Notes: generated by a model from the sequence alone, not told the origin. A stretch of 43,593 bases of DNA from Nitrospinaceae bacterium (GCA_024644405.1 JAHELC010000017.1:1-43593), one strand, 5' to 3'. Counted from the first letter of the stretch, positions 10,514 through 25,108 are shown. A program made the numbers and translations.

Positions 10514-10641
10514 AATAAATCTCCAATAGGCAAATTTTAATTTGAATGATCCAGATACCTTACCGTTCCTTTGCCGTCTATGTCAATCGGATAAGTCGTC
10601 ATTGAGGGATGAACAGTTTATTTATTGATTCTGCCGGAGAA

Positions 10642-11292
10642 TCATGAAGCATTGAAACCGGTGGAGCAATAAACCCAGCCGCCGTAGCGTTCCTCGAAAG
10701 TGGTTTCCTGGAAGTGCCGTTCGACCGATTCCCAGGGGCGTTTGTCGAAATATTCAATACCCAGTCCCAGCGGTTTTTTGATCTTGAACAACAGTTTAAA
10801 AAGCCACTGAGGCCAGGCATCCGGTTTTTTGGCGTCGAGGATGACCAATCGTCCGCCGGGTGCTAAAGCCTGCGCCGCAGATTGGATGACACGGTCAGAC
10901 TCGGGCACGTAACCCATCACGCCGGTGGTGAGTACCGCATCAATGCTCTGCGGGAATTCATACTTCGTGATCTCGGATTGGACCAGTTCGACGTTATGCC
11001 AGCCAGACCGGTCGCATCGCTCCCGGGCGCAAGCCAGCATGCCAGCGGTCATGTCCACACCGGTCAGATGTCCTTCAGGGCCGATGCGTTCGACTATATG
11101 GGAAAAACTGAGCCCCGTACCGCATCCCAGGTCCACCACCCGGTCGCCGGGTTTCAATTTCAACAGATCCACCGCGTGCCGCCGGTAAACCCCGATGCGC
11201 AGTCCTACGAGGTTATAACACCTCATGTGCCAGTCGTAGCGCCGTGAAATTTTCCGGAAAGTGGACTGTATGTCCTGGTTCAATTCGTTCAA
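10642..11292 (-). CDS. Class I SAM-dependent methyltransferase, UbiE-like
   Basis: A 216-residue enzyme with motif I VVDLGCGTGLS (about 52-62), an acidic residue after strand 2 (GVDMTAGML) and motif post-II LTTGVMGYVP. The fold is that of UbiE/COQ5-type methyltransferases, which methylate small quinones, lipids or other metabolites. The acceptor is not readable. TTG at 11292 is the start because GAGGGG lies eight bases upstream and no in-frame ATG is nearby. It is on the same strand as the seven-gene block beginning at 11449, but 156 bases separate it from the enolase-superfamily gene. It may therefore be the last gene of that block or independent. Confidence 0.85.
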   Translation of the reverse strand: MNELNQDIQSTFRKISRRYDWHMRCYNLVGLRIGVYRRHAVDLLKLKPGDRVVDLGCGTGLSFSHIVERIGPEGHLTGVDMTAGMLACARERCDRSGWHNVELVQSEITKYEFPQSIDAVLTTGVMGYVPESDRVIQSAAQALAPGGRLVILDAKKPDAWPQWLFKLLFKIKKPLGLGIEYFDKRPWESVERHFQETTFEERYGGWVYCSTGFNAS

Positions 11293-11309
11293 AGCATCAT
11301 CCCCTCTGA

Positions 11310-11435
11310 ATGGTGTATCCTGTTAAAGACTTTCCCATCACCGCTCTGGCCCGCGCCTTTGAAACCGACCTCCTGGAAATGCAGGACGAAACAGAAATCT
11401 TCGTCAGGTTAGAATCTAAAAAACATCTTTTTTAG
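11310..11435 (+). CDS. Possible 41-codon ORF in the methyltransferase/enolase gap
   Basis: An ATG-GTG-initiated frame of 41 codons runs divergently from the methyltransferase gene and ends just before the convergent enolase-superfamily stop. Its composition looks protein-like (for example PVKDFPITALARAFE and LEMQDETEIF). It has no ribosome binding site and resembles no family I recognise. It may be a remnant of a larger gene or chance. Listed because the gap is otherwise empty. Confidence 0.25.
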   Translation: MVYPVKDFPITALARAFETDLLEMQDETEIFVRLESKKHLF

Positions 11436-11448
11436 GAAGCCGCCCAGG

Positions 11449-12570
11449 CTAAGCAGTGATCGAGGGCAAATCCGCTTCGGCTATTTCGATCCCGAGACCG
11501 GGTTTTTGCGCGAAATAATGATCAGATAAGTGTCCATTTTTCCCAAACATGATCGGTTGTGCGGTGATATCGCGTTCGAGCAGGTGGGTTCCAAAAGCTC
11601 CCTCCTGAGCAGCAAGATTGTTTGAACAGGTGCTGGCAACGGTCAGAGCAGCCCGGGTCAGGATGCTGGTTTCACCAACCTGGGCGCCGACAATGACGGG
11701 GATGCCCAAATCCCCGGCTCGTCTGGCAATGGCGAGAGAGCGCACGATACCGCCCATTTTGGAAACGCGGAGATTGATCATCCAGGTTTTTGGTGACTGG
11801 GCAATGCATGCAAATTGATCCTGCCTGATGAAGCTCTCGTCTAAAATGATGGGCGTTTGTGTTGCATTGTAAAGCTTTCGGCAGCCTTCGTAATCGCCTA
11901 TTTGCAATGGCTCTTCTATGGCGACAAATGTATGCTCCAGTTTTTCTATGTAGTCAATCGCTTCGTCGGACGTTTTCCAGAAATTATTGGCATCCAAGCG
12001 CAGTTTGGATGGCTCACTGGTGACAGTGTTAAACAAATCAATCTTTTCCTTGTCTTCTTTGAAGTTTCCTGAAACTTTAACTTTAAAGTCTCCGAATCCC
12101 ATTTCAGAATACTGTCGCAATTGTTTTTCGAATCCACTGAGACTGTTTACCCCCAATACGGCTGTGTATTGAAAGTTACCCTTTAACTCTGGTAAGGATA
12201 ATAAAGTTTCTATCGGCCGCCCCTTTTCCTTGCCAAGTATATCCAGCATTGCCAGTTCCAGAGCGCACCAGGCCGCCGGGTTGCGGTCGATTTCTTCCCG
12301 GTGATCCGATATCCAGGACATCAACTGATTGAAGTCTCCAATCTGGATTACCTGCGGTCGGCAATCCTCAAAAAATTGAAATGCCGTTTTAAGAGTCTCC
12401 CCTGTAACATAGGATCTTGGGCATCCTTCGCCATATCCCTTGTGCCCGTTTTCTGATTCAGTAATTACAATAACGCTTTCAGTTTTGGAGCGTGTGGCCG
12501 AGGCATGAGTAAACGATTGTCTGAAAGGGATATTCAGCTTCTTCAGAGTTAATTTATTAATTTTCATCAT
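11449..12570 (-). CDS. Enolase-superfamily enzyme (mandelate racemase/muconate lactonizing subgroup)
   Basis: A 373-residue member of the MLE/epimerase branch, which removes the alpha proton of a carboxylate substrate and performs racemisation, epimerisation or dehydration. The active-site set is present: KxK at Lys163/Lys165 (DFKVKVSG), metal ligands Asp193 (LRLDA), Glu219 (AIEEP) and Asp244 (ILDES), and Lys271 (RVSKMGG). The DxD motif used by known dipeptide epimerases to hold the alpha-ammonium group is not seen in the corresponding C-terminal stretch (AAQEGAFGTHLL), so dipeptide epimerase is not supported. N-acyl-amino-acid racemase or OSBS-type chemistry is possible. The start overlaps the upstream GH3 gene stop by four bases (ATGA). 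That is tight coupling and suggests a shared pathway. Confidence 0.88.
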   Translation of the reverse strand: MMKINKLTLKKLNIPFRQSFTHASATRSKTESVIVITESENGHKGYGEGCPRSYVTGETLKTAFQFFEDCRPQVIQIGDFNQLMSWISDHREEIDRNPAAWCALELAMLDILGKEKGRPIETLLSLPELKGNFQYTAVLGVNSLSGFEKQLRQYSEMGFGDFKVKVSGNFKEDKEKIDLFNTVTSEPSKLRLDANNFWKTSDEAIDYIEKLEHTFVAIEEPLQIGDYEGCRKLYNATQTPIILDESFIRQDQFACIAQSPKTWMINLRVSKMGGIVRSLAIARRAGDLGIPVIVGAQVGETSILTRAALTVASTCSNNLAAQEGAFGTHLLERDITAQPIMFGKNGHLSDHYFAQKPGLGIEIAEADLPSITA

Positions 12571-14234
12571 TTTCCTATTTGAAAAGGCAGGAAATTAAAG
12601 GAGCAGTCTCTGGTGTATTGAAGCCTTACTATTTTGAACTGGCCTTCCCGCTGGTTATTGGCAAGGGAGTGTTTTTTGTATTCTTCTTCAGTGCCCTCTC
12701 TGAGGAAGATGACTTGGATCGGGTGCAGGCGGCCGCTTTTTCTTTTTGCCTCAAATTCCATATTCACCCGACTCAACTGGTCTTCCAATTGTGTGGCCAG
12801 GGATTCCTGGAGAGGGGTTTCGATATAAAGGGTATATCGCAGTTCCTCAGGGTCAGCGAGCATGATGAAAAAACCGACGGGAGCATCAAAATCCTTTTGG
12901 AGGCGGTTCAAGGCATCGATCAGCTGTTGCTCGGAAAGTTTCTCGCCGGTTATATTGGTAATGCCTTTTCCCTTTTGCACAAACTCGATGGTCGGGGTTT
13001 TATTGAAAAATCCTGTTACCGTGATAATGTCGTTGATGAAATATCGAAATAGGGAGTTTTGTGTGGTTACAATGATGTAATAGTGCTTGCCAGCTTCAAT
13101 TTGATCGAGGGTGAGAAAACGCGGATTATCCCGATTCCAATCCTCCAATTCCACAAATTCATAAAAATTTTCATGAAATGTCGGAACGCATCTATTGTTG
13201 ACCGGATCCAGTGCCAGGCTGCCTCTGAACTCACTGGAGAGGTAACCCAGTTCAATGATCCGGGTCTGGTCCGCCAGCAAGGCGCGAAGTTTTGGGAGGA
13301 GTATCCTGCAGCTTCCTCCCGTCCAGGTAGCCACCGCCCGGAGATTCGGCCACAGGGTTTGAAAAGTGAGTTTGTTTGCAGGGCCTGAATATGTTTTTAA
13401 TGCGTTTGCACGAGCGGGATCGGGTTTGAAATACTTGTCAATCAACGCCTTATATTGAGGCTTGGGCGTGACCCAGTCGGGCAGCTCACCGGTGCTTATA
13501 AAACGGATCAGGTTTTCCCAATCGTTTCGGATAATATCCATCATCTTCAAGAATGTCGAGGGATTGGCGCTGGTCAAAAAGGAAACCTCCGGTTCCCTTG
13601 CGCCGAAACCGCAAATCAGAAAATACTTTAACGGGTAGTCCTCTATTTCAAAAATCTCAGAAGGGAGGAGATACTTGCGCCGGATGAGAAACGGCACGCT
13701 TTTAAAAAGCAGGCCGGAAACCGAACCATAGGGGGTTCCGGAATCAAGATATCCTTCGATAACGGGGCTTCCGATTCCAATAATTCTTCCGCTGAAGATA
13801 CCCGGTATAGCTTGCAATTGAGCGAATGAAACCAGAGCCAGCCCGCTTTTGAGTTGAACCATCGAGCTGGGGTAGAGGGGAATATACTTGCATGCACCCG
13901 TGGTTCCGCTGGTAACCGAAAACAAGATCAGGCGTTCGGTATGTATGGCGGGTTCCTTTTTATTATCCTGTTCCTTGATGTAAGGACTGAGGTCATCATA
14001 GTTGTGTACGGGGATGGCTTTCTGGAACTGCAGGTAGGTTGAAATGAAATCGAATCCGTACTTTTTACCGAACCGGGTGTTTTTATTGGCCCTGATAATT
14101 TTTTGCAGAAGCTTGTTCTGAATTGCCTGCGGGTTATGGGTTTTCTGGATAAAGGGTTTCCAGGAACATTGCTGTATGGCCATCATTTGCAGGTGAATCA
14201 GGAAATTGAGGAACACATTTAGAAGTCGTCCCAT
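12567..14234 (-). CDS. GH3-family acyl-acid amido synthetase
   Basis: A 555-residue ANL-type adenylating enzyme of the GH3 family. Plant members join carboxylic acids to amino acids through an acyl-adenylate; bacterial members are less studied. Motif I is TSGTTGACKYIP (108-119), motif II is YLSSEFRGS, motif III is LFRYFINDIITVTGF, and the C-terminal hinge has ITGEKLSEQQ. The N-terminus (about 1-65) is helical with a weakly hydrophobic first segment. Length is normal. The upstream desaturase-like gene ends four bases before the ATG and the downstream enolase-superfamily gene overlaps by four bases. The acid and amino acid substrates are unknown. Family assignment is strong. The product being an acyl-amino-acid conjugate is inference from plant members. 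Confidence 0.9.
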   Translation of the reverse strand: MGRLLNVFLNFLIHLQMMAIQQCSWKPFIQKTHNPQAIQNKLLQKIIRANKNTRFGKKYGFDFISTYLQFQKAIPVHNYDDLSPYIKEQDNKKEPAIHTERLILFSVTSGTTGACKYIPLYPSSMVQLKSGLALVSFAQLQAIPGIFSGRIIGIGSPVIEGYLDSGTPYGSVSGLLFKSVPFLIRRKYLLPSEIFEIEDYPLKYFLICGFGAREPEVSFLTSANPSTFLKMMDIIRNDWENLIRFISTGELPDWVTPKPQYKALIDKYFKPDPARANALKTYSGPANKLTFQTLWPNLRAVATWTGGSCRILLPKLRALLADQTRIIELGYLSSEFRGSLALDPVNNRCVPTFHENFYEFVELEDWNRDNPRFLTLDQIEAGKHYYIIVTTQNSLFRYFINDIITVTGFFNKTPTIEFVQKGKGITNITGEKLSEQQLIDALNRLQKDFDAPVGFFIMLADPEELRYTLYIETPLQESLATQLEDQLSRVNMEFEAKRKSGRLHPIQVIFLREGTEEEYKKHSLANNQREGQFKIVRLQYTRDCSFNFLPFQIGK

Positions 14235-14238
14235 AGCC

Positions 14239-15129
14239 TTATTCCTGCTCGATTCCTTTAATAAAGGGCGTTTTCAGTTGCGAGATAAAAGGCAGTGGGT
14301 AGTTTCTATTGGTCAGCCCGAGGAGATTGACTTGTCTTTCTCTGGGCAAGAACCATGTGCCGAACAACAAATCCCAAACGATGAGATTATTGCCGTAGTT
14401 CTGGTTGGACTCCCTGGCGACCATTGAATGGTGCCACCGGTGCAGCTCCGGACCGCTGATAATATAATTCAGGACCCCAAGACGCAACTTGATATTGCAA
14501 TGCTGGAAAAAGCCGTTGATGGAATAGAAAACAAAATATAAGGCTAAAACTTCCTCTGCAATCCCCAGAACAATAAAAGGCAATGCGTCGAACAAATACT
14601 GCAGCGCTTTTTCAATGGGATGAAACCGTGCGACGTTGACCCAGTAAAGCTTGTGGGGGGAGTGATGAACCGCATGAAGGCGCCACAGCAACGGCCACTC
14701 GTGCGAATACCGGTGCAACCAATACCTCAAAAAATCAGCCGACAAGATCATCAGCAGGGCTTGCACGAACACCGGCCAATCGTAAGGCCACCAAGAGTCG
14801 AATGTCATGTTCCGGGTTTTCAAATAGCTCAGCAGCGTGATTGCCAATGCAAAGGATAAAACCCTGGGCAGGACGATCTGGACGATGACCATATAAGCGG
14901 AATCGTTCAAAACGTCATTGGAGTTTGCGGACCATTCTTTCCGTTGGGGATAATAGATTTCCAGGAAGGTGATCGCACCGGCTCCAAAAATGGCGGGAAT
15001 ATAAGTTGCCGTGGTTAATTCAAAACCCCAATGGAGAATCAGGTAATGCAGGCCAATGCCTGCCGCCATCACCAACGGGTAAGGGCACCACGGGAAAAGG
15101 CGATCGTAAAAAGAAGCTTTGTTGCTCAT
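14239..15129 (-). CDS. Sterol desaturase/fatty acid hydroxylase family membrane protein
   Basis: A 296-residue integral membrane non-haem diiron enzyme. Three His clusters are intact: HRYSH (139-143), HAVHH (152-156) and HRWHH (230-234), with a further His at 210 in FFQHCN. Hydrophobic segments at about 17-35, 42-60, 78-100, 118-135 and 185-205 fit a polytopic membrane enzyme. Family members hydroxylate or desaturate fatty acids, sterols or other lipids using O2. The substrate is unknown. The ATG overlaps the upstream membrane-protein stop (ATGA), and the GH3 ATG follows four bases after this stop. The gene is therefore tightly embedded in a four-gene operon. Confidence 0.92.
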   Translation of the reverse strand: MSNKASFYDRLFPWCPYPLVMAAGIGLHYLILHWGFELTTATYIPAIFGAGAITFLEIYYPQRKEWSANSNDVLNDSAYMVIVQIVLPRVLSFALAITLLSYLKTRNMTFDSWWPYDWPVFVQALLMILSADFLRYWLHRYSHEWPLLWRLHAVHHSPHKLYWVNVARFHPIEKALQYLFDALPFIVLGIAEEVLALYFVFYSINGFFQHCNIKLRLGVLNYIISGPELHRWHHSMVARESNQNYGNNLIVWDLLFGTWFLPRERQVNLLGLTNRNYPLPFISQLKTPFIKGIEQE

Positions 15130-15590
15130 AATAATTTATGAACACCCCTTCCAAATTTATAATAATAATGTCCAACGATGATCAGGAAGGATGCCAGAAC
15201 AAGATGAAAGAAAGTGGGCAATCTTGCCCCCAGCCAGGCATGATCGGGTGCAAAAGTCAGTCCCGCTATCATTCGGAACAGCATGATGGAAAAATAAATA
15301 AATCCGAAAACAAGGCACAGTTTTCCTATCTTGAAATTAGGCCGGGCTGTTCCAGTGATGAATTGATAAGTAATTCTAAGACAGATGGCAATGATTGCAA
15401 TTTGGGAGACCACCAAAATCCAATAGGGCAGGGCTCCGCTGTGCCAGTCCTCAAAGGCAGGAAGAAAGGAAACTGGATAAAAACTCTGTAGAAGCTGGGC
15501 CCCCACGCGAAAACTAAAAAGAAATAAAAGGAGCGTCAGCCAGTAGCCATGTTTCTTAGATGCGTTTTCAGAAAAATGTTGTTCGTTCAT
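15126..15590 (-). CDS. Small integral membrane protein, unrecognised
   Basis: A 154-residue protein with four probable transmembrane helices (about 15-35, 53-74, 87-108, 122-145). There is no signal peptide cleavage site and no catalytic motif. It ends with FGRGVHKLL on the inner or outer side. AAGGGGA lies nine bases before the ATG. Its stop overlaps the ATG of the fatty-acid-hydroxylase-type gene, so it is probably a partner or membrane subunit of that enzyme or pathway. It is the first gene of a coupled set of four. I recognise no family. Confidence 0.75.
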   Translation of the reverse strand: MNEQHFSENASKKHGYWLTLLLFLFSFRVGAQLLQSFYPVSFLPAFEDWHSGALPYWILVVSQIAIIAICLRITYQFITGTARPNFKIGKLCLVFGFIYFSIMLFRMIAGLTFAPDHAWLGARLPTFFHLVLASFLIIVGHYYYKFGRGVHKLL

Positions 15591-15706
15591 GCGGCTTCCC
15601 CTTGAAAGGCCTCCCTTTTATATTAAGGCAGGTAAGCCTCGAATGGAAAAAATTTTGAATATTTCACTGGCGTGGTTTTCCAAAACTCCGTTTCGATAGC
15701 TGAGTT

Positions 15707-18700
15707 TTATTGTTTTGAGAAGTGAATTCTATCGAGGTCGCCTAGAATCGCATACAGCACAGGCACGACCAGAAGTACCAACAAGGTGGAGGCGAGCATA
15801 CCGAAGACGATGCTGGTCACCAACGGAATCAGTACCTGGGCTTGCAGGCTTTTTTCCATCAGGAGTGGTAGCAGTCCCATGATCGTGGTCAGCGATGTTA
15901 AAAGGATTGCCCGAAAACGCAGGCGGCTGGCCTTTTTTGCGGCCTCTGCCGGGGGATCCCCTTTCCTCAGGTGTTGCTTGATAAATGTGACCAGGAGAAT
16001 TGAATCGTTGATGACCACCCCGGTCAGGGAAACCAGGCCCATCAGGCTCACCATGGAAATATCCAAACCCATGAGATAGTGTCCCCAGATCACGCCCACC
16101 AGTGCCAACGGAATAGCGGACATAACTGCCAATGGTTCCACATAGTTCCTGAACTGAAAACTGAGCAATACAAAAACTCCTATGATTCCGACAAGGAAGG
16201 CTTTGAGCATGGACTTCCCCGTTTTTTGGGATTCTTTTTCCTGGCCTTCCAGGTTAAAAGTGATGTCCGGGTATTTCTGTTTTAGGTTGGGTAAAAAATT
16301 TGCTTTGGTGTCTGCCAGAATCTCCGCAGCATTTGCGAGGTGGGTGTCCACATCTCCTTGAATGGTGACCGAGCGTATGGAATTGATTCTTGAGATGCGG
16401 GCGGTACCTCGCTGATATTCCAGGTGAGCCACATTTTTTAAAGGGATGCGTTCACCGGTTTTTGTAGTGACGTAAAAATAGTCGAGATCGTCCAGGCTGT
16501 TCTGGTCCAGGGTGGAGAGTTGCACGTCAATTTCATACGATTCGGAACCCAATTGGAACTCATCCGCCGTTTGACCATAAAAAGCGGCCCGCAATTGGTT
16601 GGCGATGGTAGAAGCATCCATTCCCTGGGCCAGCGCCCCGGCTTTAAGGCGTACCCGTACTTCCGGTTTTCCCGGCCGCAAGTCATCATTCAAGTCAAAA
16701 ACCCCCACGTATTGATTCAACCAGTCCTGCAACTCCAGCGAAGACTGTTTCAGTTGTTCCAGGTCGCTGCCCTGCAGCCGGATTTCGATGGGCAGACCCC
16801 CCGGACCGATAGTGGGTTCTTTGAAAGTTAAATTAATAATGTCCGGCAGGTCCTGCAGTTTTTCCCGCCACATATTTTTGACGGTATCCAGCTTGGCGTT
16901 CCGCTTTTCCGCCTTTAACAGATCCACCGAAACCGTAGCCACATGAGTCCCGGTTTCATTCGCATCGATATTCTTGTTGTACTGGATGTTTATATTCTCG
17001 ACCAGCGGCTGTCCTTCCGGCTGAAGGGGTTGGAGCTTTTCGTTGACCTCTTTGAGAGCTTTGACTGTTTTTTCTGCGATTTCTTCCGTTCGGGACAAGG
17101 GAGTTCCCTGAGGGAGCAGAATCCGTGCCTCCAGCACATCGCCGTCAATTTCGGGAAAGGCGATAATCTTGATTTTTCCGCTTGTCACCATTCCCAGTGA
17201 AAAAACAAAAATTAAAATGACCAAGCCGATAAAAAAATATTTCCAATTCACCGACCAGTCCACGACGCGTCCCAATACCTGTTCGCGCAGATAATTCAAG
17301 GAAACATTCACCTTGTGTTTGAACTTATTCGGGGCCGAGGCTGAATTCAAATGAAGGGAATGCGAGAGATGATGAGGCAGTATGAAGAAGGCTTCGACCA
17401 GGCTGACGGTCAAGGTCACTATAAGAACGACCGGCATCACCCAGAGCACCAAACCGATTTCACCCTCGATCAAAACCGCAATGGAGCCGAAGATCGCCAC
17501 CGTGGTTAAAAAAGAGGAAAACACGCCAGGCAGGACCTCCAGGGTGCCATCGACAGCGGCGTCCAAGGGTTTCTTGCCTCGTTGTGAATGAGAAGATATA
17601 TTTTCGGAAATAACGATAGCGTCGTCCATAAGGAGTCCCAAAGCCACCAATAACCCCACCATGGTCAACATGTTTATGGAAAAATCTATGGCATGCATGA
17701 CAAACAGGGTGCCGAGGAAGGAAACCGGCAGCCCCATGGCCACCCAAAAAGATGTTCGTAAGGTGAAGAACAACCACATGGTCAAAAAAACCAGGATCAA
17801 ACCCTGGATCCCATTTCTTAAGAGCATGGTCAGCCGGTCCCGCACAATATCCGAAACATTTTGAGTGAGAACCATTTTTACTTCCGGGGGATGCTGCAGG
17901 CGCTCCTTTTCCAGGAAATTCTGCACGGCATCCAGAATATTGAGCGAATCCTCGCTTTTCATTTTCATGATTCTCAACAGGCCGGCCCGTTGCCCGTTAA
18001 AGATTATCTTGTCCTCATCCAATTCAAACCGGTCCGTAATTTTGGCAATGTCCCCCAGTCGAATTTCTTCCCCGGTGGAGTGTGAGACGATGATTAGGTT
18101 TTCGAATTCCGGTACCGTGTACCGTTTGTCCTGAAATCGGAGCATGACGTTCTGATCGGGAGTTTCAATGGTTCCGGCGGGTAGGTCCACATTTTGGCGG
18201 GAAAGATTTTCGGTAATGTCGTTGAGATTCATCCCCAATTGGAGGAGATTCTGAGCGGGAATTTCGATTCGGATCTGGTGGTCCGAAAAACCCAGGATAT
18301 TGACTTGGGACACTTCCTCCAAAAGCAACAGACGGTCTTTGAACCTTTCGCAAAACAACTTCAAGTCGGGGACCGACATGGGACCCGTAACCGCCACAGA
18401 CACCACCTGATCGACTTTTCCCAGTTGTTTGATGATGGCGCGTTCCACCTCCTCAGGGAAATCATCGATCGCCTCAACCTCTGTTTTGATGTCATCCAGA
18501 AAGCGTAGAAAGTCGCCTTCATCCCGCATCTCTACCACCACGCGGGCCCGGTTCTCCTGGGCCTCGCTGCGGATTTCCTCAATGTGATTGACTTCATCCA
18601 GGGAGTCTTCGATGCGCTGGCAAATGGCTTCTTCGATTTCTTCGGCGCTCGCTCCGGGATAGTTCACCAGGATCTCGACTTCTTTTGGAGTGAAGTCCGG

Positions 18701-18817
18701 GAAGGTCTCGCGGCGAATATCCTGAACCGTGGCCAGCCCGAGGAAAATAAAAATCAGCATTATAAGGTTGGCGGCGGTCGGATGATTGGCAAAAAAACGA
18801 ATGAAAGGTCCGGACAT
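15707..18817 (-). CDS. RND efflux transporter, AcrB/MMPL-type inner-membrane pump
   Basis: A 1036-residue tripartite-type pump. The N-terminus begins with a transmembrane helix (ANLIMLIFIFLGLATV) after MSGPFIRFFANHP, followed by the periplasmic porter domain. Proton-relay residues Asp398/Asp399 lie in TM4 (GLLMDDAIV), so proton-motive drive is expected. A second half carries the repeated porter and TM10-12 set. There is no metal-binding signature of the CzcA type, so export of an organic compound is more likely. The membrane-fusion protein lies one base upstream. No TolC-like outer-membrane partner is present in the window. Neighbouring biosynthetic-looking genes on the same strand suggest, but do not prove, that it exports their product. 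Confidence 0.95.
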   Translation of the reverse strand: MSGPFIRFFANHPTAANLIMLIFIFLGLATVQDIRRETFPDFTPKEVEILVNYPGASAEEIEEAICQRIEDSLDEVNHIEEIRSEAQENRARVVVEMRDEGDFLRFLDDIKTEVEAIDDFPEEVERAIIKQLGKVDQVVSVAVTGPMSVPDLKLFCERFKDRLLLLEEVSQVNILGFSDHQIRIEIPAQNLLQLGMNLNDITENLSRQNVDLPAGTIETPDQNVMLRFQDKRYTVPEFENLIIVSHSTGEEIRLGDIAKITDRFELDEDKIIFNGQRAGLLRIMKMKSEDSLNILDAVQNFLEKERLQHPPEVKMVLTQNVSDIVRDRLTMLLRNGIQGLILVFLTMWLFFTLRTSFWVAMGLPVSFLGTLFVMHAIDFSINMLTMVGLLVALGLLMDDAIVISENISSHSQRGKKPLDAAVDGTLEVLPGVFSSFLTTVAIFGSIAVLIEGEIGLVLWVMPVVLIVTLTVSLVEAFFILPHHLSHSLHLNSASAPNKFKHKVNVSLNYLREQVLGRVVDWSVNWKYFFIGLVILIFVFSLGMVTSGKIKIIAFPEIDGDVLEARILLPQGTPLSRTEEIAEKTVKALKEVNEKLQPLQPEGQPLVENINIQYNKNIDANETGTHVATVSVDLLKAEKRNAKLDTVKNMWREKLQDLPDIINLTFKEPTIGPGGLPIEIRLQGSDLEQLKQSSLELQDWLNQYVGVFDLNDDLRPGKPEVRVRLKAGALAQGMDASTIANQLRAAFYGQTADEFQLGSESYEIDVQLSTLDQNSLDDLDYFYVTTKTGERIPLKNVAHLEYQRGTARISRINSIRSVTIQGDVDTHLANAAEILADTKANFLPNLKQKYPDITFNLEGQEKESQKTGKSMLKAFLVGIIGVFVLLSFQFRNYVEPLAVMSAIPLALVGVIWGHYLMGLDISMVSLMGLVSLTGVVINDSILLVTFIKQHLRKGDPPAEAAKKASRLRFRAILLTSLTTIMGLLPLLMEKSLQAQVLIPLVTSIVFGMLASTLLVLLVVPVLYAILGDLDRIHFSKQ

Positions 18818-18818
18818 T

Positions 18819-20177
18819 TTAATTCACGGTTTTGGAGCCGGTGGCCTCTTTGATGATCTTAGAAAGAGCGGCCTCGTCGGTTTGAGGTTTGAGAAGCATT
18901 CCGCTGATGGCTGGAACCAGATCGCTGATTATAATTTTTTCGTTGGGACGAATTCCCGATTTGACCGATATGAGATTTCCTTGTTGGAAATCGATTTCAA
19001 TCGTCTTCTTTTCCAGCCGGTTTTCTTCGGTGACGAAATAAACCTGTCCCTCGTGGACGGCCGACCGGGGAATAACGATGGTTTGGTCGCGTGGTTTCCC
19101 GCGCAGTTCTACTTCGACATACATGTTTTTTTGCAGAGGCGGTTTTTTACCGGGTTGAATCTTCTGGAAGGGGTTATCCACGGCGACATACACGCCAATC
19201 GAGCCGGTTTTGATATCCGTTTCTCCAAAACGGGCAAAACGTCCTTCCCACTCCGCCATGCGTCCCCCCATTTCGAGGCGAACGATGGCTTTAAGACCCA
19301 ACTTGCCCTGGACATCTCCACGGCTCAAGCCTTTTAAGTTTTGAATGTCGATAGGCTTCCCCAAGTTCTTGGGGATCAGGTTTTTCATGTAATGACGGGA
19401 GACTTGAACCAGAACTTCCGAAATTCCCACGCTGTCGAGGGTGACCAGGATTTGTCCGGCAGTGGCCGCCTGGCCCTTTTGGATATTGACTTCCGCCACC
19501 CGGCTGTCAAATGGAGCTTTGATCACGGTTTTTTTTAGAGTAATCCGTGCATCCTGGGATCGGGTTTTGAGGGCACGCAGGGAAGCTTTCAGGGCGCGGC
19601 GCTCCGAGGGCAGTTGATTCAATATTCCTTTGTAATTTTCGACCGTATTTTTTTGTGTTAAAAGGTTCTGCTCTTCCCGGTTCAGGTCGGAGCGGGAAAT
19701 GATGCCGCCCTCAAAGAGCTTTTTCTTTCGTTCCAGCTCATTTCTGTAAATTTCAAGAGATCGTTGCTCGACTTTAAGTTGCCGCTGGGTGTCGGCTTTT
19801 TTCTGGTCCAATTCTTCGATTTGCGCCTGCATTTTTTGTATTTCGGCTTCGATTTCCTGCAGGGCCAATTGACTCTGTTCCGGCGCAATGCTGACCAGCA
19901 GATCGCCCTTGGCCACGAACGCTCCCTGCTGCAAATCGGGATTGAAATCGACGATTCTCCCGGCAACTTCCGCAACGGCTTTCCAGGTTCGCTCGGGTTG
20001 CACGTAACCGTTGCCTACGGCAATGGGAATTAAAATAACTTTGGGGGCGGGGATGACGCGGACCGGCTTGGCCCGCTCCTGGGTTTGGGTTTTCTCAGGC
20101 CCGGTCTTGCTTTGGGACATGTACCAGAATACGGCGATTCCTAATATAAGACCCGGCAGCAGCAGTAGTTTTTTCAT
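18819..20177 (-). CDS. RND membrane-fusion protein, HlyD/AcrA family
   Basis: A 452-residue periplasmic adaptor that bridges an RND pump to an outer-membrane channel. An N-terminal membrane anchor or signal (LLLLPGLILGIAVFWYM, about 4-20) is followed by a lipoyl half-domain. A long alpha-helical hairpin spans about 105-215, rich in Gln, Glu and Lys, and the second lipoyl half lies near KAPFDSRVAEVNIQKGQ. A beta-barrel and a membrane-proximal domain follow. The stop TAA is one base before the RND pump ATG, so translation is coupled. Upstream, 188 bases separate it from the diiron-enzyme gene on the same strand. Function as adaptor is well supported; the exported substrate is unknown. Confidence 0.95.
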   Translation of the reverse strand: MKKLLLLPGLILGIAVFWYMSQSKTGPEKTQTQERAKPVRVIPAPKVILIPIAVGNGYVQPERTWKAVAEVAGRIVDFNPDLQQGAFVAKGDLLVSIAPEQSQLALQEIEAEIQKMQAQIEELDQKKADTQRQLKVEQRSLEIYRNELERKKKLFEGGIISRSDLNREEQNLLTQKNTVENYKGILNQLPSERRALKASLRALKTRSQDARITLKKTVIKAPFDSRVAEVNIQKGQAATAGQILVTLDSVGISEVLVQVSRHYMKNLIPKNLGKPIDIQNLKGLSRGDVQGKLGLKAIVRLEMGGRMAEWEGRFARFGETDIKTGSIGVYVAVDNPFQKIQPGKKPPLQKNMYVEVELRGKPRDQTIVIPRSAVHEGQVYFVTEENRLEKKTIEIDFQQGNLISVKSGIRPNEKIIISDLVPAISGMLLKPQTDEAALSKIIKEATGSKTVN

Positions 20178-20365
20178 GGATATCCCAAAAAGCGGGTGGA
20201 CTCGCTATTGGACAACTTGGACGATCTATTAAAGCAGGATATCGTGAAAACATCAAAAAAAGATTTAAGGTGAATACCTTAAGCCTTGTAAAAGGGCAGG
20301 GGCTTTATTGCAAAAAGAGAGTTGCGGATAACTCCGCTTATGGAAGAACTCGGGGACCAGTTGTT

Positions 20366-21427
20366 TTATGCTTCCCGGATGGATCGGGCAATGGCTTGGC
20401 TGGCTCTCGCGCTGATGAATTGTTGCTGGTCGTAACCCCACACAATTTCCCAGGCGAGGTCCGGGTAACGGTCGACCAACGGGAGGGCGACATCGTCCAC
20501 CATCCATCGACCGTGCCGCAGGTCTTCCTTGATATGCAGTTCCCAGTAGTCGGTGGCCTCCGGACCCAAGCCGAGACGCTCCCCGGCGAGCTTGTAGCTT
20601 TCAAATGCCGCGGGAACTGAAACTTCAAAGAAAAGAAGAGAGCCGATATAACGTAAAAAATTCCGCTTGCGCTCGCACAGAAAAAAACTGTGATTGATAT
20701 TGGCTAGCACTTCCCAGGGAGCCAAATCAAAGTAAGCTTCCGGTCGGGTATCCATATTGAATTGTTTCAGCATGGTAGAGAAATAGGTCGAATGTTTCCT
20801 GGCCAGGATTCCTTTTCCGTACTCTTCGGAAAAAATTCGGGTGAGCATCGATTGAACTTCATTCCCAACCCCTCCTAAAACCCGGGAGAGTTGGCTTGCC
20901 TCAACCAATCCGTCAAGAGAAGCGATAGCTAAAAGTCGGCGGTAACCGGTTTTCGTCATTTCATTTCGAAAATAAAGGCCTTCCGCTGAAGGCTCCGGAT
21001 CGAGGCCCTCAGCCACCCGATCCCGCAAAGCTTTTCTGACTTCGGCAATCGTATCGACGGGCTCAACTTCTATATGGTTCGATTCCCAATCCTGCCAAGC
21101 TGATTCAATTCGGTTTTGGATCCCGAAAAGATAATGGGAATCTTCATTGGAATAATTTTCCAGGTCGTCATACCAAAAAAGTTTTAACCGGTTGATGCGA
21201 TATAGAATTCTTTGAAGAAAAAGAAGGGCCTGCGGTTCGCAACCTGACTCATCAAGGCCATCCGAAAGAGCGTACTCAAGCGTATCTTCGAAGTCCTCTT
21301 TTAATGCGGGATTTTCGTTAATTTTTTGTTCCAAATTGTCCAGGTGAAGTAATTGAGTAAATTGATCTTCAATATCCTGGAAATCGATATCGGAGACGTC
21401 CGTCGTTGAATCTATTTTTGAATGCAT
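20366..21427 (-). CDS. Haem-oxygenase-like diiron enzyme (iron-containing redox enzyme family)
   Basis: A 353-residue protein from the chosen ATG at 21427. An in-frame ATG at 21529 would add 34 residues that read like intergenic DNA. The C-terminal half has the residue pattern of haem-oxygenase-like diiron oxidases (the UndA, SznF and CADD superfamily). Candidate ligands are Glu202 and His212 (EEYGKGILARKHS), Glu268 (LLFFEVSVP), and His298-x3-Asp302-x2-His305 (ELHIKEDLRHG). Such enzymes use O2 for N-oxygenation, C-C cleavage or decarboxylation of small amino-acid-like substrates. The N-terminal 150 residues are acidic and unrecognised. It is divergent from an EgtD-like methyltransferase. In streptozotocin synthesis an N-methyltransferase and a diiron enzyme of this class work in sequence, which makes the pair suggestive. 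The ribosome binding site is weak, so the start is uncertain. Confidence 0.78.
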   Translation of the reverse strand: MHSKIDSTTDVSDIDFQDIEDQFTQLLHLDNLEQKINENPALKEDFEDTLEYALSDGLDESGCEPQALLFLQRILYRINRLKLFWYDDLENYSNEDSHYLFGIQNRIESAWQDWESNHIEVEPVDTIAEVRKALRDRVAEGLDPEPSAEGLYFRNEMTKTGYRRLLAIASLDGLVEASQLSRVLGGVGNEVQSMLTRIFSEEYGKGILARKHSTYFSTMLKQFNMDTRPEAYFDLAPWEVLANINHSFFLCERKRNFLRYIGSLLFFEVSVPAAFESYKLAGERLGLGPEATDYWELHIKEDLRHGRWMVDDVALPLVDRYPDLAWEIVWGYDQQQFISARASQAIARSIREA

Positions 21428-21553
21428 TTGGCTTTCATTGGAAAATAATTGGGTTTTTAGGATTGCAGGGTAAGTTTGAAAGATTGTACCATAACACACT
21501 CTTTCTAAGACCTCAAACAACAGGACCATTTTACTTTCAATATAAGGACAATA

Positions 21554-22552
21554 ATGTCATTTGATTTTAAAAACCTCAGGCCAGACAGTAACTCCGATTC
21601 CAAGGATCATGAATTTACGCAAGCGGTTATCAAAGGATTGTCTGAAGAGCGAAAAAGATTGCCGTCATGGCTCATATTCGATGACCGGGGAAGTGAGATA
21701 TTTGAAGAAATTGTGGGGCTGAAAAATTATCATCCTGCTGTTTGTGAGTTTGAAATATTCCATACACACAAACAAACTATTGCGGAACTCATTTTTGATG
21801 AAGCCTTGCAGATTATCGATCTCGGTTCGGGGGATGCGCGTAAGACCAGGGTCCTTCTTGAGCATTTAGTAGAAAATGAACTGCAGATTCATTACATTCC
21901 CATTGATATCTCTGCCGGTGCTGTTAAAAATCTGGTCACTTTACTGGAATCAAAATTCGGTAACACTTCTTTGGCAGTCACCGGGATCGCCTCCGAATAT
22001 TTTCAAGGGCTGGAAGCCGTTCCCCGGGAACAGTTCAAGCGAAACTTTGTTTTTTTTCTGGGGTCGACTATCGGTAACCAGGATTACCCTGCCGCCGGAA
22101 AGTTTTTGCGCAGGCTGTGGGAATCTCTCAATGACGGGGACTACGTGATGATCGGATTCGATCTCATGAAAAATCCCAAACTCCTTTACCGCGCCTACAA
22201 CGATCCCGAAGGTGTTTTTCAAAAATTCAATTTGCATCTACTGGACCGCATCAACCAGGAACTTGGTGCCAATTTCATTAAAAGTAATTACGTCCAGGAA
22301 GGGCATTACAATGAGCAGTCTCATGCCGTTGAAAGTCATGTTTACAGCACCGAGGACCAAACGGTTAAAATGCCGGCGCTGGGCAAGGAATTTCACTTCA
22401 AAGCGTGGGAAGGGATGCAGACCGAACATTCTTACAAATATACGATGCCTGAAATCGAAGCGCTGGCTCAAAATAACGGATTTGAAATTGTTGAACACCT
22501 CTTTGATTCAAAAAAGTTCTTTGTCGATTCGATCTGGAAAGTCAAAAAATAA
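21554..22552 (+). CDS. egtD: EgtD-like L-histidine N-alpha-methyltransferase
   Basis: A 332-residue SAM-dependent methyltransferase of the EgtD/DUF2260 family, which trimethylates the alpha-amine of histidine to hercynine in ergothioneine synthesis. Motifs present: FDDRGSEIFEEIV (42-54), IDLGSGDARKT (88-98, SAM), GSTIGN with Asn175, AYNDPEGV (214-221) and a C-terminal TEHSYKY (290-296) whose Glu291 and Ser293 match amino-acid-binding residues in characterised EgtD. The usual YYPTRTE motif reads NYHPAVCE here, a deviation near the substrate site. No EgtB or EgtE gene is in the window, so ergothioneine production is not shown. AAGG at 21541-21544 serves as ribosome binding site. It is divergent from the diiron-enzyme gene and has a short shared upstream region. 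Confidence 0.8.
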   Translation: MSFDFKNLRPDSNSDSKDHEFTQAVIKGLSEERKRLPSWLIFDDRGSEIFEEIVGLKNYHPAVCEFEIFHTHKQTIAELIFDEALQIIDLGSGDARKTRVLLEHLVENELQIHYIPIDISAGAVKNLVTLLESKFGNTSLAVTGIASEYFQGLEAVPREQFKRNFVFFLGSTIGNQDYPAAGKFLRRLWESLNDGDYVMIGFDLMKNPKLLYRAYNDPEGVFQKFNLHLLDRINQELGANFIKSNYVQEGHYNEQSHAVESHVYSTEDQTVKMPALGKEFHFKAWEGMQTEHSYKYTMPEIEALAQNNGFEIVEHLFDSKKFFVDSIWKVKK

Positions 22553-22633: not shown

Positions 22634-25108
22634 TCAGTTGTTGTTATGAGGCGCAACAACTGTAGCGCTATCGTCCGCATCATTACCGGATGCATCGGAC
22701 CCCGTGTAAGTGACCGTGTAGGTGCGTCCGATTTTAGCACCATCACGTTCGGCGCGGACTTGGAACGTAGTATCAGGTGTCCCCAGTTCCGTTCCCGCAA
22801 TGTCGTCGGTAGTGTGACCGTCCCCGGTCGCGTCATCAAATTCACTGCTGGTGACCGATTTGAGGACAAACGTTGGATTGGGATCACACACGTCGGTAAC
22901 GTTGACCGTTGCCGTGATGTCGTGCATCGTATGGTTCGGAGGCCACAGCATGTTGGGGCTGAGAGAGACGTTGACTACCGGATCGGTCGTGTCAACCACC
23001 TCAGCGGTCATGGTATCCGAGTCGTCCAACGCTCCGTCGGAAACGGTGAGGGTTACCTCCGTGCTTCCCAGCGGAAAAGTTGCGCTGGGATTGACACTGG
23101 TCGGATCGCTGAATACGATTCCCGGTGCCGTCCACATATAGGTGAGCATATCACCATCGGGATCGGTTGAGCCCGATCCGTCCATGAACATCACAGTCCC
23201 TGCGTGTGAGGCGCACTCAACGGTCTGATCCGGCCCGGCGTCCGCTACCGGCGGGTTGTTGGGAACGATGACCAGCTCGGAAATCATTCCGATGGTGGCG
23301 TGCAGAAACAGGTGACAGTGAAAGACCCAACGGCCCTCGGCGCCGCCCGTGGGAAAGAACTGATTGGGATCCGGGGCGTCCATTTCCTGCCGGTTGTCGG
23401 TGATTCTCGGCCGGTCCTCCAGCCGCATACGCACCACGACGCGTTGACCACTGAAAATGTCAATGACATCGACAAATTCTTCATAGTCAAACTCGTATAA
23501 AATCGTGTCCATTGCTGTGTTCTCTTTATCTCCAAGATCCCCAATCTGTATAATGCGTACGGGTTGAAAAGAGAATCCATGATGATGAAATGGATGATGC
23601 TGGCCCCCGCCGCCCCCGCCGGTGAAATTCGAAATTGTGAACTCAATCGTATCCCCCGTCCTTGCGTAGCGGGTGGCGTCTTGATAGGGCACGAGGGTAT
23701 AGTCAGGACCGCTGTCCTCAAAGTGACCTTGCACGCCATCGATCGCGAGGTGTCCAGGTATGCCACCTGCACTACCCAATCTGATAACTGGATCGGAAGA
23801 GCCCACCCCCATGAAAGGAGGCGTAAGGGGTGGGGGATCGATAAAGCCGGATACCGCCACGCTCTTCAAATCATCGATACCGCCATCGCCCAGAACATCC
23901 TGGCCGGCGACGATCGTGAAAGGGTCGTCCACCAGGGTGTTGTCTATCTCAATGTAGAGCAGGTCGCCTGCGGTATCATCGTTGCCGGGCGGACCCGCAC
24001 GATTGTAATCAAGACCCGATATGGTTATGATGTCACCGTTGTTTCCCGTGGGAACAATCACCACATCGGCTCTTCCGGATGCGGGGACTACAATTTCGCC
24101 GACATTGTATTTGGTGTCCCAGCTACCCAGCATGCCGCCTTCCAGCCGCACATGTTCGAGAAAACCGCCTTCTCCGCCGATACGGTAGAGATTGTTGTCA
24201 GAACCGTTACCCGTTACAGCCAGGCGAAAATAACGGTTGGTGGAAGGATTGATCAAACGCAGGCGTATGCCGGCCCCTGATTTGGCGGTGATCATGGGCG
24301 TGCTTGCTGTTGGCTTTTGACCGTTCACCAGAACCGTGTCGCCATTGCTGACAGTCTGGCAATTTCCGCCTGTAGTCGCGCATTCATCCGTAAGCACAGC
24401 CCAGGTATCAAAAACGTCCGGGGTCATAGGATCAAAATCGTCATCGTAGTTGTATCCAACATCGCCTGCTCCGTTAAATTCGATATCGCTCAAGACCACC
24501 GTATGGGTGTTGGCCGCCGAGGGAATCTTGCCGTCGGCTTCAAGCGTGGCTTCATTGGGATCCTTAACGATAAACGAGCCGTACATGCCGGCAAACGTTT
24601 GCGGTCCGGGCAGCATGTGCGTGTGGAACCAGAAAACACCCGGGCGGTGTGTTAAAAAGCGGTAAGTGTAAGTCTGGCCCTGGGTCAGATGGTTCTGTGT
24701 GACGCCGGTGCCATCGCTGTCATTGTCTAATTCGAGGCCGTGCCAGTGGATGCTGGAATCGCAGGCACCGGCAGCGCATGCCATGGGAATACTGTTCGTT
24801 AACGTAACGATGACCTCATCCCCGACATTCACAATAATCTGGGGAATGGGAATGCCGTTGGGTTCTACGGCCGCGTAGCCCCCGACCCGGTTGTCATCTT
24901 TGTAGATCATGGCGTGAACCGTGTTGCCGTCAATGGTCACGTCCTGCTCGGCGGCGGTGAGTGCCGCTTCAAAAATGTTAGGATCCGGATTGATGTCAAC
25001 CACATTGAGGACCGGCTGGCTTAAGGTTGTTGCGGCCACCGGTTGCACACATAAAAAAATTAACAGTGCACTGAATATGGAAACCAAATAGCTGTGTCTG
25101 AGTTTCAT
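22634..25108 (-). CDS. Exported multicopper oxidase with PKD and HYR-like C-terminal domains
   Basis: An 824-residue exported oxidase; signal peptide to about residue 26. Copper motifs are complete: HWHG (121-124), HTH (162-164), HHPFHHHG (504-511), and HCH (597-599) with His603 and Met608 (HLFLHATIGM). The enzyme should carry one type-1 and a trinuclear centre and oxidise metals, phenols or nitrogen species. From about 617 a PKD domain begins (ADAGPDQTVEC, then GSGSTDPDGD), followed from about 705 by an HYR/Ig-like module ending in a Thr/Asn/Asp-rich tail. Such tails anchor or bind surfaces in exported proteins. The start follows GGGAGG. Fusion of a laccase-type oxidase with PKD/HYR is unusual. 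It is a single-gene unit with a strong terminator. Confidence 0.93.
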   Translation of the reverse strand: MKLRHSYLVSIFSALLIFLCVQPVAATTLSQPVLNVVDINPDPNIFEAALTAAEQDVTIDGNTVHAMIYKDDNRVGGYAAVEPNGIPIPQIIVNVGDEVIVTLTNSIPMACAAGACDSSIHWHGLELDNDSDGTGVTQNHLTQGQTYTYRFLTHRPGVFWFHTHMLPGPQTFAGMYGSFIVKDPNEATLEADGKIPSAANTHTVVLSDIEFNGAGDVGYNYDDDFDPMTPDVFDTWAVLTDECATTGGNCQTVSNGDTVLVNGQKPTASTPMITAKSGAGIRLRLINPSTNRYFRLAVTGNGSDNNLYRIGGEGGFLEHVRLEGGMLGSWDTKYNVGEIVVPASGRADVVIVPTGNNGDIITISGLDYNRAGPPGNDDTAGDLLYIEIDNTLVDDPFTIVAGQDVLGDGGIDDLKSVAVSGFIDPPPLTPPFMGVGSSDPVIRLGSAGGIPGHLAIDGVQGHFEDSGPDYTLVPYQDATRYARTGDTIEFTISNFTGGGGGGQHHPFHHHGFSFQPVRIIQIGDLGDKENTAMDTILYEFDYEEFVDVIDIFSGQRVVVRMRLEDRPRITDNRQEMDAPDPNQFFPTGGAEGRWVFHCHLFLHATIGMISELVIVPNNPPVADAGPDQTVECASHAGTVMFMDGSGSTDPDGDMLTYMWTAPGIVFSDPTSVNPSATFPLGSTEVTLTVSDGALDDSDTMTAEVVDTTDPVVNVSLSPNMLWPPNHTMHDITATVNVTDVCDPNPTFVLKSVTSSEFDDATGDGHTTDDIAGTELGTPDTTFQVRAERDGAKIGRTYTVTYTGSDASGNDADDSATVVAPHNNN

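Follow-up and report, generated by a model that had tools for sequence, protein, structure and literature searches.

A conserved SMP-FAH-GH3-ENOL gene module in Nitrospinaceae and other bacteria, possibly for synthesis of modified N-acyl amino acids

We analyzed a 43,593-nucleotide stretch of DNA (here, the window) from the 3.0-Mb assembly of a Nitrospinaceae bacterium (GCA_024644405.1, JAHELC010000017.1:1-43593). An original prediction had placed eight genes at positions 11449 to 22552 in one small-molecule cluster with its own RND exporter. We find that a real conserved module is present but comprises only the four minus-strand genes at 11449-15590, which encode a small membrane protein (SMP), a fatty-acid-hydroxylase-type enzyme (FAH), a GH3 synthetase, and an enolase-superfamily enzyme (ENOL). 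The evidence comes from gene content, linkage, natural fusions, co-occurrence across genomes, an empty site, and intact catalytic residues. Relatives of this genome in the collection searched carry the labels Nitrospinaceae and Nitrospina, and we place it in Nitrospinota. In the explanation that we favor, and to which we give about an even chance, the module is an operon complete in itself that was acquired by horizontal transfer and makes a modified N-acyl amino acid, either an amino-lipid or a lipid-like signal. The genes of the module, in order of transcription, are as follows.

15126 to 15590, minus strand: SMP, a 154-amino-acid four-helix membrane protein, the module's first gene
14239 to 15129, minus strand: FAH, a membrane diiron hydroxylase of the OlsE-like fatty-acid-hydroxylase superfamily (PF04116)
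12567 to 14234, minus strand: GH3, an ATP-dependent acyl-acid amido synthetase (PF03321 and two further GH3 domains)
11449 to 12570, minus strand: ENOL, an enolase-superfamily protein (MLE subgroup), predicted alpha-carbon epimerase of an N-acyl amino acid

Linkage and distribution of the module

The four core genes are translationally coupled, with 4-bp overlaps at SMP/FAH and GH3/ENOL and a 4-bp gap between FAH and GH3. A promoter scan returned no more sites than were found in shuffled sequences. GH3 homologs were detected in 5 of 60 relatives, each time in the flanking order SMP-FAH-GH3-ENOL and in different surroundings (ENOL of one of these five loci, L009, was recognized in a hidden Markov model [HMM] search of the loci). 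A collection-wide scan with a six-sequence GH3 profile yielded 37 loci, 4 of which were already among the relatives' loci. Across 39 distinct GH3 loci, with neighbors identified by HMM searches, FAH adjoins or is fused to GH3 in 38, and an SMP homolog is present in 26. ENOL lies directly 3' of GH3 in 35 of the 36 loci with a long enough contig, and the most distant GH3 (L046) is the sole exception to both the FAH and the ENOL linkage. FAH and GH3 form a single protein in 13 loci and SMP and FAH do so in 2 (L030 and L049); no internal stops were present in the 12 FAH::GH3 and 2 SMP::FAH fusions that were translated.

This arrangement is far beyond chance, and the neighborhood of RND, haem-oxygenase-like (HO), and EgtD-like genes is not. 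The flanks of the module are otherwise unrelated between loci, and all-against-all clustering of neighbors revealed no further core gene widely common across them. Linkage, fusions, and the co-occurrence described below strongly support that part of the original prediction that proposed an uncharacterized small-molecule or lipid pathway with GH3, fatty-acid-hydroxylase-type, and enolase-superfamily enzymes.

The module occurs in Nitrospinota, Nitrospirota, Nitrosomonadaceae, Gallionellaceae, other Proteobacteria, Bdellovibrionota, Armatimonadota, and others, including several nitrifier lineages important for the nitrogen cycle. A role as a nitrifier-specific marker was ruled out, as many carriers are non-nitrifiers and the module is carried by 4 of 120 Nitrosomonadaceae genomes. 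No close GH3 match was found in the plasmids searched.

Co-inheritance and horizontal transfer

Among 61 genomes, strong matches to ENOL (530 to 571 bits; next best, 63) were found only in the six genomes with GH3, and strong matches to FAH (441 to 464 bits; next best, 167) only in the same six. The chance of two such 6-of-61 sets being identical is ∼1 in 5.6e7 if kinship is ignored. These six genomes span three families, and the genes are missing from other genomes of the genus to which the window belongs. Pairwise distances of GH3, FAH, and ENOL are correlated (Spearman, 0.81 to 0.84; 0 of 999 permutations).

One same-genus genome (G002) preserves an empty site, with L062:8375 corresponding to window position 10593 and L062:8434 to 15714, ∼58 bp apart, and flanks sharing 79% and 84% DNA identity with the window on the two sides. 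The module and an adjacent UbiE-like gene together account exactly for the ∼5.1 kb that is missing; the product of the UbiE-like gene scores 76 bits against a UbiE cutoff of 216 and is not UbiE itself.

10594 to 15713: segment without a counterpart at the matching site of G002
10642 to 11292, minus strand: UbiE-like S-adenosylmethionine (SAM) methyltransferase, possible accessory gene, gone together with the module at the empty site

Because this segment is absent from an otherwise matching site in the same genus, it looks like a recent insertion. In a second genome (G006), HO (window position 20365) is joined almost directly to window position 10607, and the RND pair is absent too. The G+C content of the module genes is 42 to 48%, versus ∼55% for glutamate synthase and dnaK in the window. 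A quick GH3 tree, some forks of which are weak, placed Nitrosomonas with Poribacteria and Verrucomicrobia, apart from other Betaproteobacteria, and nested Nitrospirota within Nitrospinota. Horizontal transfer of the module is the simplest reading.

Separately, we observed that the module copies of L017 (SAR324) and L034 (Verrucomicrobia) are nearly identical and that the copy of L021 (Thioglobus) is very close to those of L022 and L024 (Verrucomicrobiota). Such close copies in bins assigned to different phyla mean that some host labels cannot be relied on and that the bins may hold stray contigs.

Predicted enzymes and proposed product

GH3-dependent amino-lipid synthesis was reported in 2025 for one planctomycete, Singulisphaera acidiphila, where OlsH makes N-acyl ornithine from ATP, a fatty acid, and ornithine; what other bacterial GH3 enzymes make was left open in that study (PMC12493201). 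As in that OlsH/OlsI/OlsG ornithine-lipid pathway, a GH3-family enzyme with GH3 domains and the ATP-site motif (SGTTGxxK, conserved among homologs) is encoded in a small operon, sometimes near a methyltransferase, and should use ATP and a free fatty acid to form an N-acyl amino acid. In contrast to the OlsH operon, the module has no OlsI or OlsG, and the partners of GH3 are SMP, FAH, and ENOL, with neither a hydroxylase nor an enolase-superfamily enzyme reported for the OlsH pathway. OlsH (NF052613) is the sole NCBIfam match of the module GH3, at 86 bits, far under the cutoff of 620. No PF13444 (OlsB-type) acyltransferase was found in the window's genome, which we count in favor of the pathway proposed below.

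The only solved relatives of the module GH3 are plant GH3s. It belongs to the same three-domain family as AtGH3.15, GH3.12, and JAR1 and shares their ATP-site motifs, but it is distant from them, sits in a bacterial operon, and is fused to a membrane hydroxylase in some species. The module GH3s are a separate clade tied by fusion and co-inheritance to the hydroxylase and the enolase-superfamily enzyme, so the product is predictable in class and testable with three genes.

OlsE hydroxylates the ornithine head group (PMC3972451); the title of a work cited on it gives C4 as the position. All 36 FAH homologs match OlsE, the sole NCBIfam model matched by all, and the window's FAH is similar over its full length, with PF04116 and the diiron histidine motifs, which are invariant among homologs. 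It differs from OlsE in scoring well under the cutoff (185 versus 475 bits; NF052566), in its fusion to GH3 in 13 loci, and in having SMP as a partner. SMP had no match in Pfam or NCBIfam, and its structure model (mean predicted local distance difference test [pLDDT], 92.8) had none in a fold search of the PDB. In a model of the natural SMP::FAH fusion made for docking, the SMP part was of low confidence (pLDDT of about 50 to 75), and the fold search again returned no match.

ENOL shares with dipeptide epimerases and N-acylamino-acid racemases its fold, the KxK and opposite Lys acid-base residues, and the Asp/Glu/Asp metal ligands; these residues (K163, K165, D193, E219, D244, and K271) are invariant in 29 homologs. 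The closest solved chains are the dipeptide epimerase 3JVA and 2P88, which we take to be an N-succinyl-Arg/Lys racemase. Enzymes of both kinds work at the alpha-carbon of N-acylated amino acids. Based on homology, ENOL may racemize N-acyl amino acids. Unlike these enzymes, ENOL is nearly always linked to GH3 and FAH, and it lacks the full DxD motif of dipeptide epimerases; since that motif binds the free amine of the dipeptide, its absence fits an acyl group at this position.

From these features we infer the substrates, order of steps, stereochemistry, product, and role of the module. First, GH3 would activate a fatty acid by adenylation and couple it to an amino acid through the alpha-amine, the reaction that OlsH carries out on ornithine. 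Next, FAH, which would be docked with SMP and which in some bacteria is covalently fused to GH3, would hydroxylate the conjugate, probably on the amino-acid head. ENOL would then epimerize the Mg-bound N-acyl amino acid from L to D by abstracting its alpha-proton. GH3 and ENOL are linked in this scheme because such racemases use N-acyl amino acids with a free carboxylate, the class of product expected of GH3. If ENOL is an epimerase, stereochemical inversion would be added to bacterial lipid chemistry. A methyltransferase, MMPL exporter, or alpha/beta-hydrolase that some hosts have in addition may act after these steps.

Several points weigh against this scheme. Reactions of the MLE subgroup match ENOL about equally (menC, 100 bits; muconate cycloisomerase, 97 bits; cis-3-hydroxy-L-proline dehydratase, 91 bits), all below equivalog cutoffs, and the DLD of 3JVA aligns with gap-Q-E in ENOL, which therefore has no full DxD. 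No SMP was found in 13 of the 39 loci, some of which are on short contigs. Because GH3 and FAH are far under the OlsH and OlsE cutoffs, their substrates may differ, and with no OlsA- or OlsI-type acyltransferase encoded in the module, its gene content does not call for a lipid with two chains.

The similar scores also suit a different chemistry in the same operon, in which FAH would hydroxylate the amino acid and ENOL would eliminate water or cyclize, giving an N-acyl dehydroamino acid or a lactone. The dehydratase and cycloisomerase models match ENOL almost as well as those of epimerases do, and a hydroxylase nearly always adjoins ENOL. We consider this outcome rather unlikely, as the closest solved chains are epimerases or racemases and both face-opposed lysines are invariant, as expected for racemization, although not exclusive to it. 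A non-lipid amide of another acyl acid, for example an aromatic one, appears improbable: an OSBS- or MLE-like ENOL would prepare the acid, GH3 would conjugate it, and FAH would oxidize it. The menC matches agree with such a product, as do the only solved relatives of GH3, the plant enzymes, which form conjugates of jasmonate, benzoates, and auxin. However, long-chain lipid substrates are indicated by the fusion of GH3 to a hydroxylase integral to the membrane and by OlsH and OlsE being the nearest families.

We file the module as a variant of GH3-dependent amino-lipid synthesis and do not assign its enzymes to OlsH, OlsE, or the dipeptide epimerases. A search of the open-access literature, with subscription papers and preprints outside its scope, found no paper on the combination of GH3, hydroxylase, and enolase-superfamily enzyme. 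More tentatively, the module may make a new class of bacterial lipid or signal, namely head-group-hydroxylated N-acyl D-amino acids or lactones derived from them. This would be a three- to four-gene cassette, spread horizontally across phyla that include nitrite and ammonia oxidizers, in which an enolase-superfamily epimerase was co-opted for lipid biosynthesis.

Genes that follow the module vary. A SAM methyltransferase of at least three different types lies 3' of ENOL in the window, L009, L036, L043, and L045. In Halobacteriovorax (L043:11704-14573) and Colwellia (L045:11604-14441), genes for an MMPL exporter and for an ICMT/PEMT-type methyltransferase come after the fused module, and a Peptidase_S15/PepX_C alpha/beta-hydrolase is directly 3' of ENOL in two distant lineages (L015:11737-13560 and L028:6675-8480). 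These accessory genes are weak, lineage-specific signals, as would fit a lipid-like product that is modified further or exported.

Neighboring genes in the window

All eight genes of the original prediction are open reading frames (ORFs) at the positions given, and the families named were confirmed by model matches: HO-like (PF14518, E = 1.6e-27), EgtD type (PF10017, E = 1e-88), RND permease (E = 1e-169), RND adaptor (TIGR01730, 120 bits), FA_hydroxylase (E = 1e-29), GH3 (E = 1.5e-57), and MR_MLE_C of ENOL (E = 2e-32). The features beside the module are as follows.

15707 to 20177, minus strand: RND permease and adaptor, judged a bystander by comparison with related genomes
20366 to 22552: HO-like gene (minus strand) and EgtD-like gene (plus strand), an independent conserved divergent pair

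We judged the RND pair, which is separated from SMP by a 116-bp gap, to be a bystander and not part of the pathway. Permease orthologs with ∼90% identity occur in the same-genus genomes G002 and G004, beside the adaptor, HO, and EgtD, and both genomes lack GH3. Orthologs with 61 to 64% identity occur in G008, G011, and G013, of which G011 and G013 lack GH3. G008 holds both the RND pair and the module, at 2.34 and 3.01 Mb on one contig and thus 660 kb apart, and for the four remaining relatives with the module the top RND match has only ∼24 to 26% identity. An RND gene lies upstream of the module in 3 of the 39 loci, but the three are not orthologous (22% identity in L029 and 31% in L045), which ruled out RND as a common part of the module. 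The Colwellia set (L045:1460-7358) comprises an outer-membrane factor, an adaptor, and an RND permease.

Scattering of the genes in related genomes, which the original prediction had named as grounds for its refutation, was observed for RND, HO, and EgtD but not for GH3, FAH, ENOL, and SMP; neither the proposed exporter nor the HO-like and EgtD-like genes belong with the module. Although the eight genes are contiguous and mostly on one strand, and Colwellia also has an RND set upstream of its module, a single cluster that exports through RND and uses HO and EgtD for tailoring is extremely improbable given RND-MFP-HO-EgtD without the module in same-genus genomes, the separation in G008, the missing RND orthologs in other module-bearing relatives, and a Colwellia permease that is just 31% identical. 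Synteny and the empty site ruled out one eight-gene cluster and indicate three separate things instead.

The HO-like and EgtD-like genes form an independent divergent pair that is conserved across the order without the module. HO is present in 42 of 61 relatives, versus 6 of 61 for GH3, and EgtD is divergent beside HO in 11 of the 12 loci checked. At 272 bits, the EgtD-like protein falls slightly short of the EgtD cutoff of 290.9, and the pair could be its own pathway. A search for EgtB via PF03781 (FGE-sulfatase) gave 31 matches in the 3.0-Mb genome, too many to single out EgtB and, as a number, seemingly unusually high. The DNA past the EgtD-like gene in G002 and G004 does not match window positions 22634-25108, where a large, secreted-looking multicopper-oxidase-like ORF adjoins the EgtD-like gene. 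The start of HO in its 387-amino-acid ORF is probably ∼30 codons too early, because its relatives are ∼356 amino acids long.

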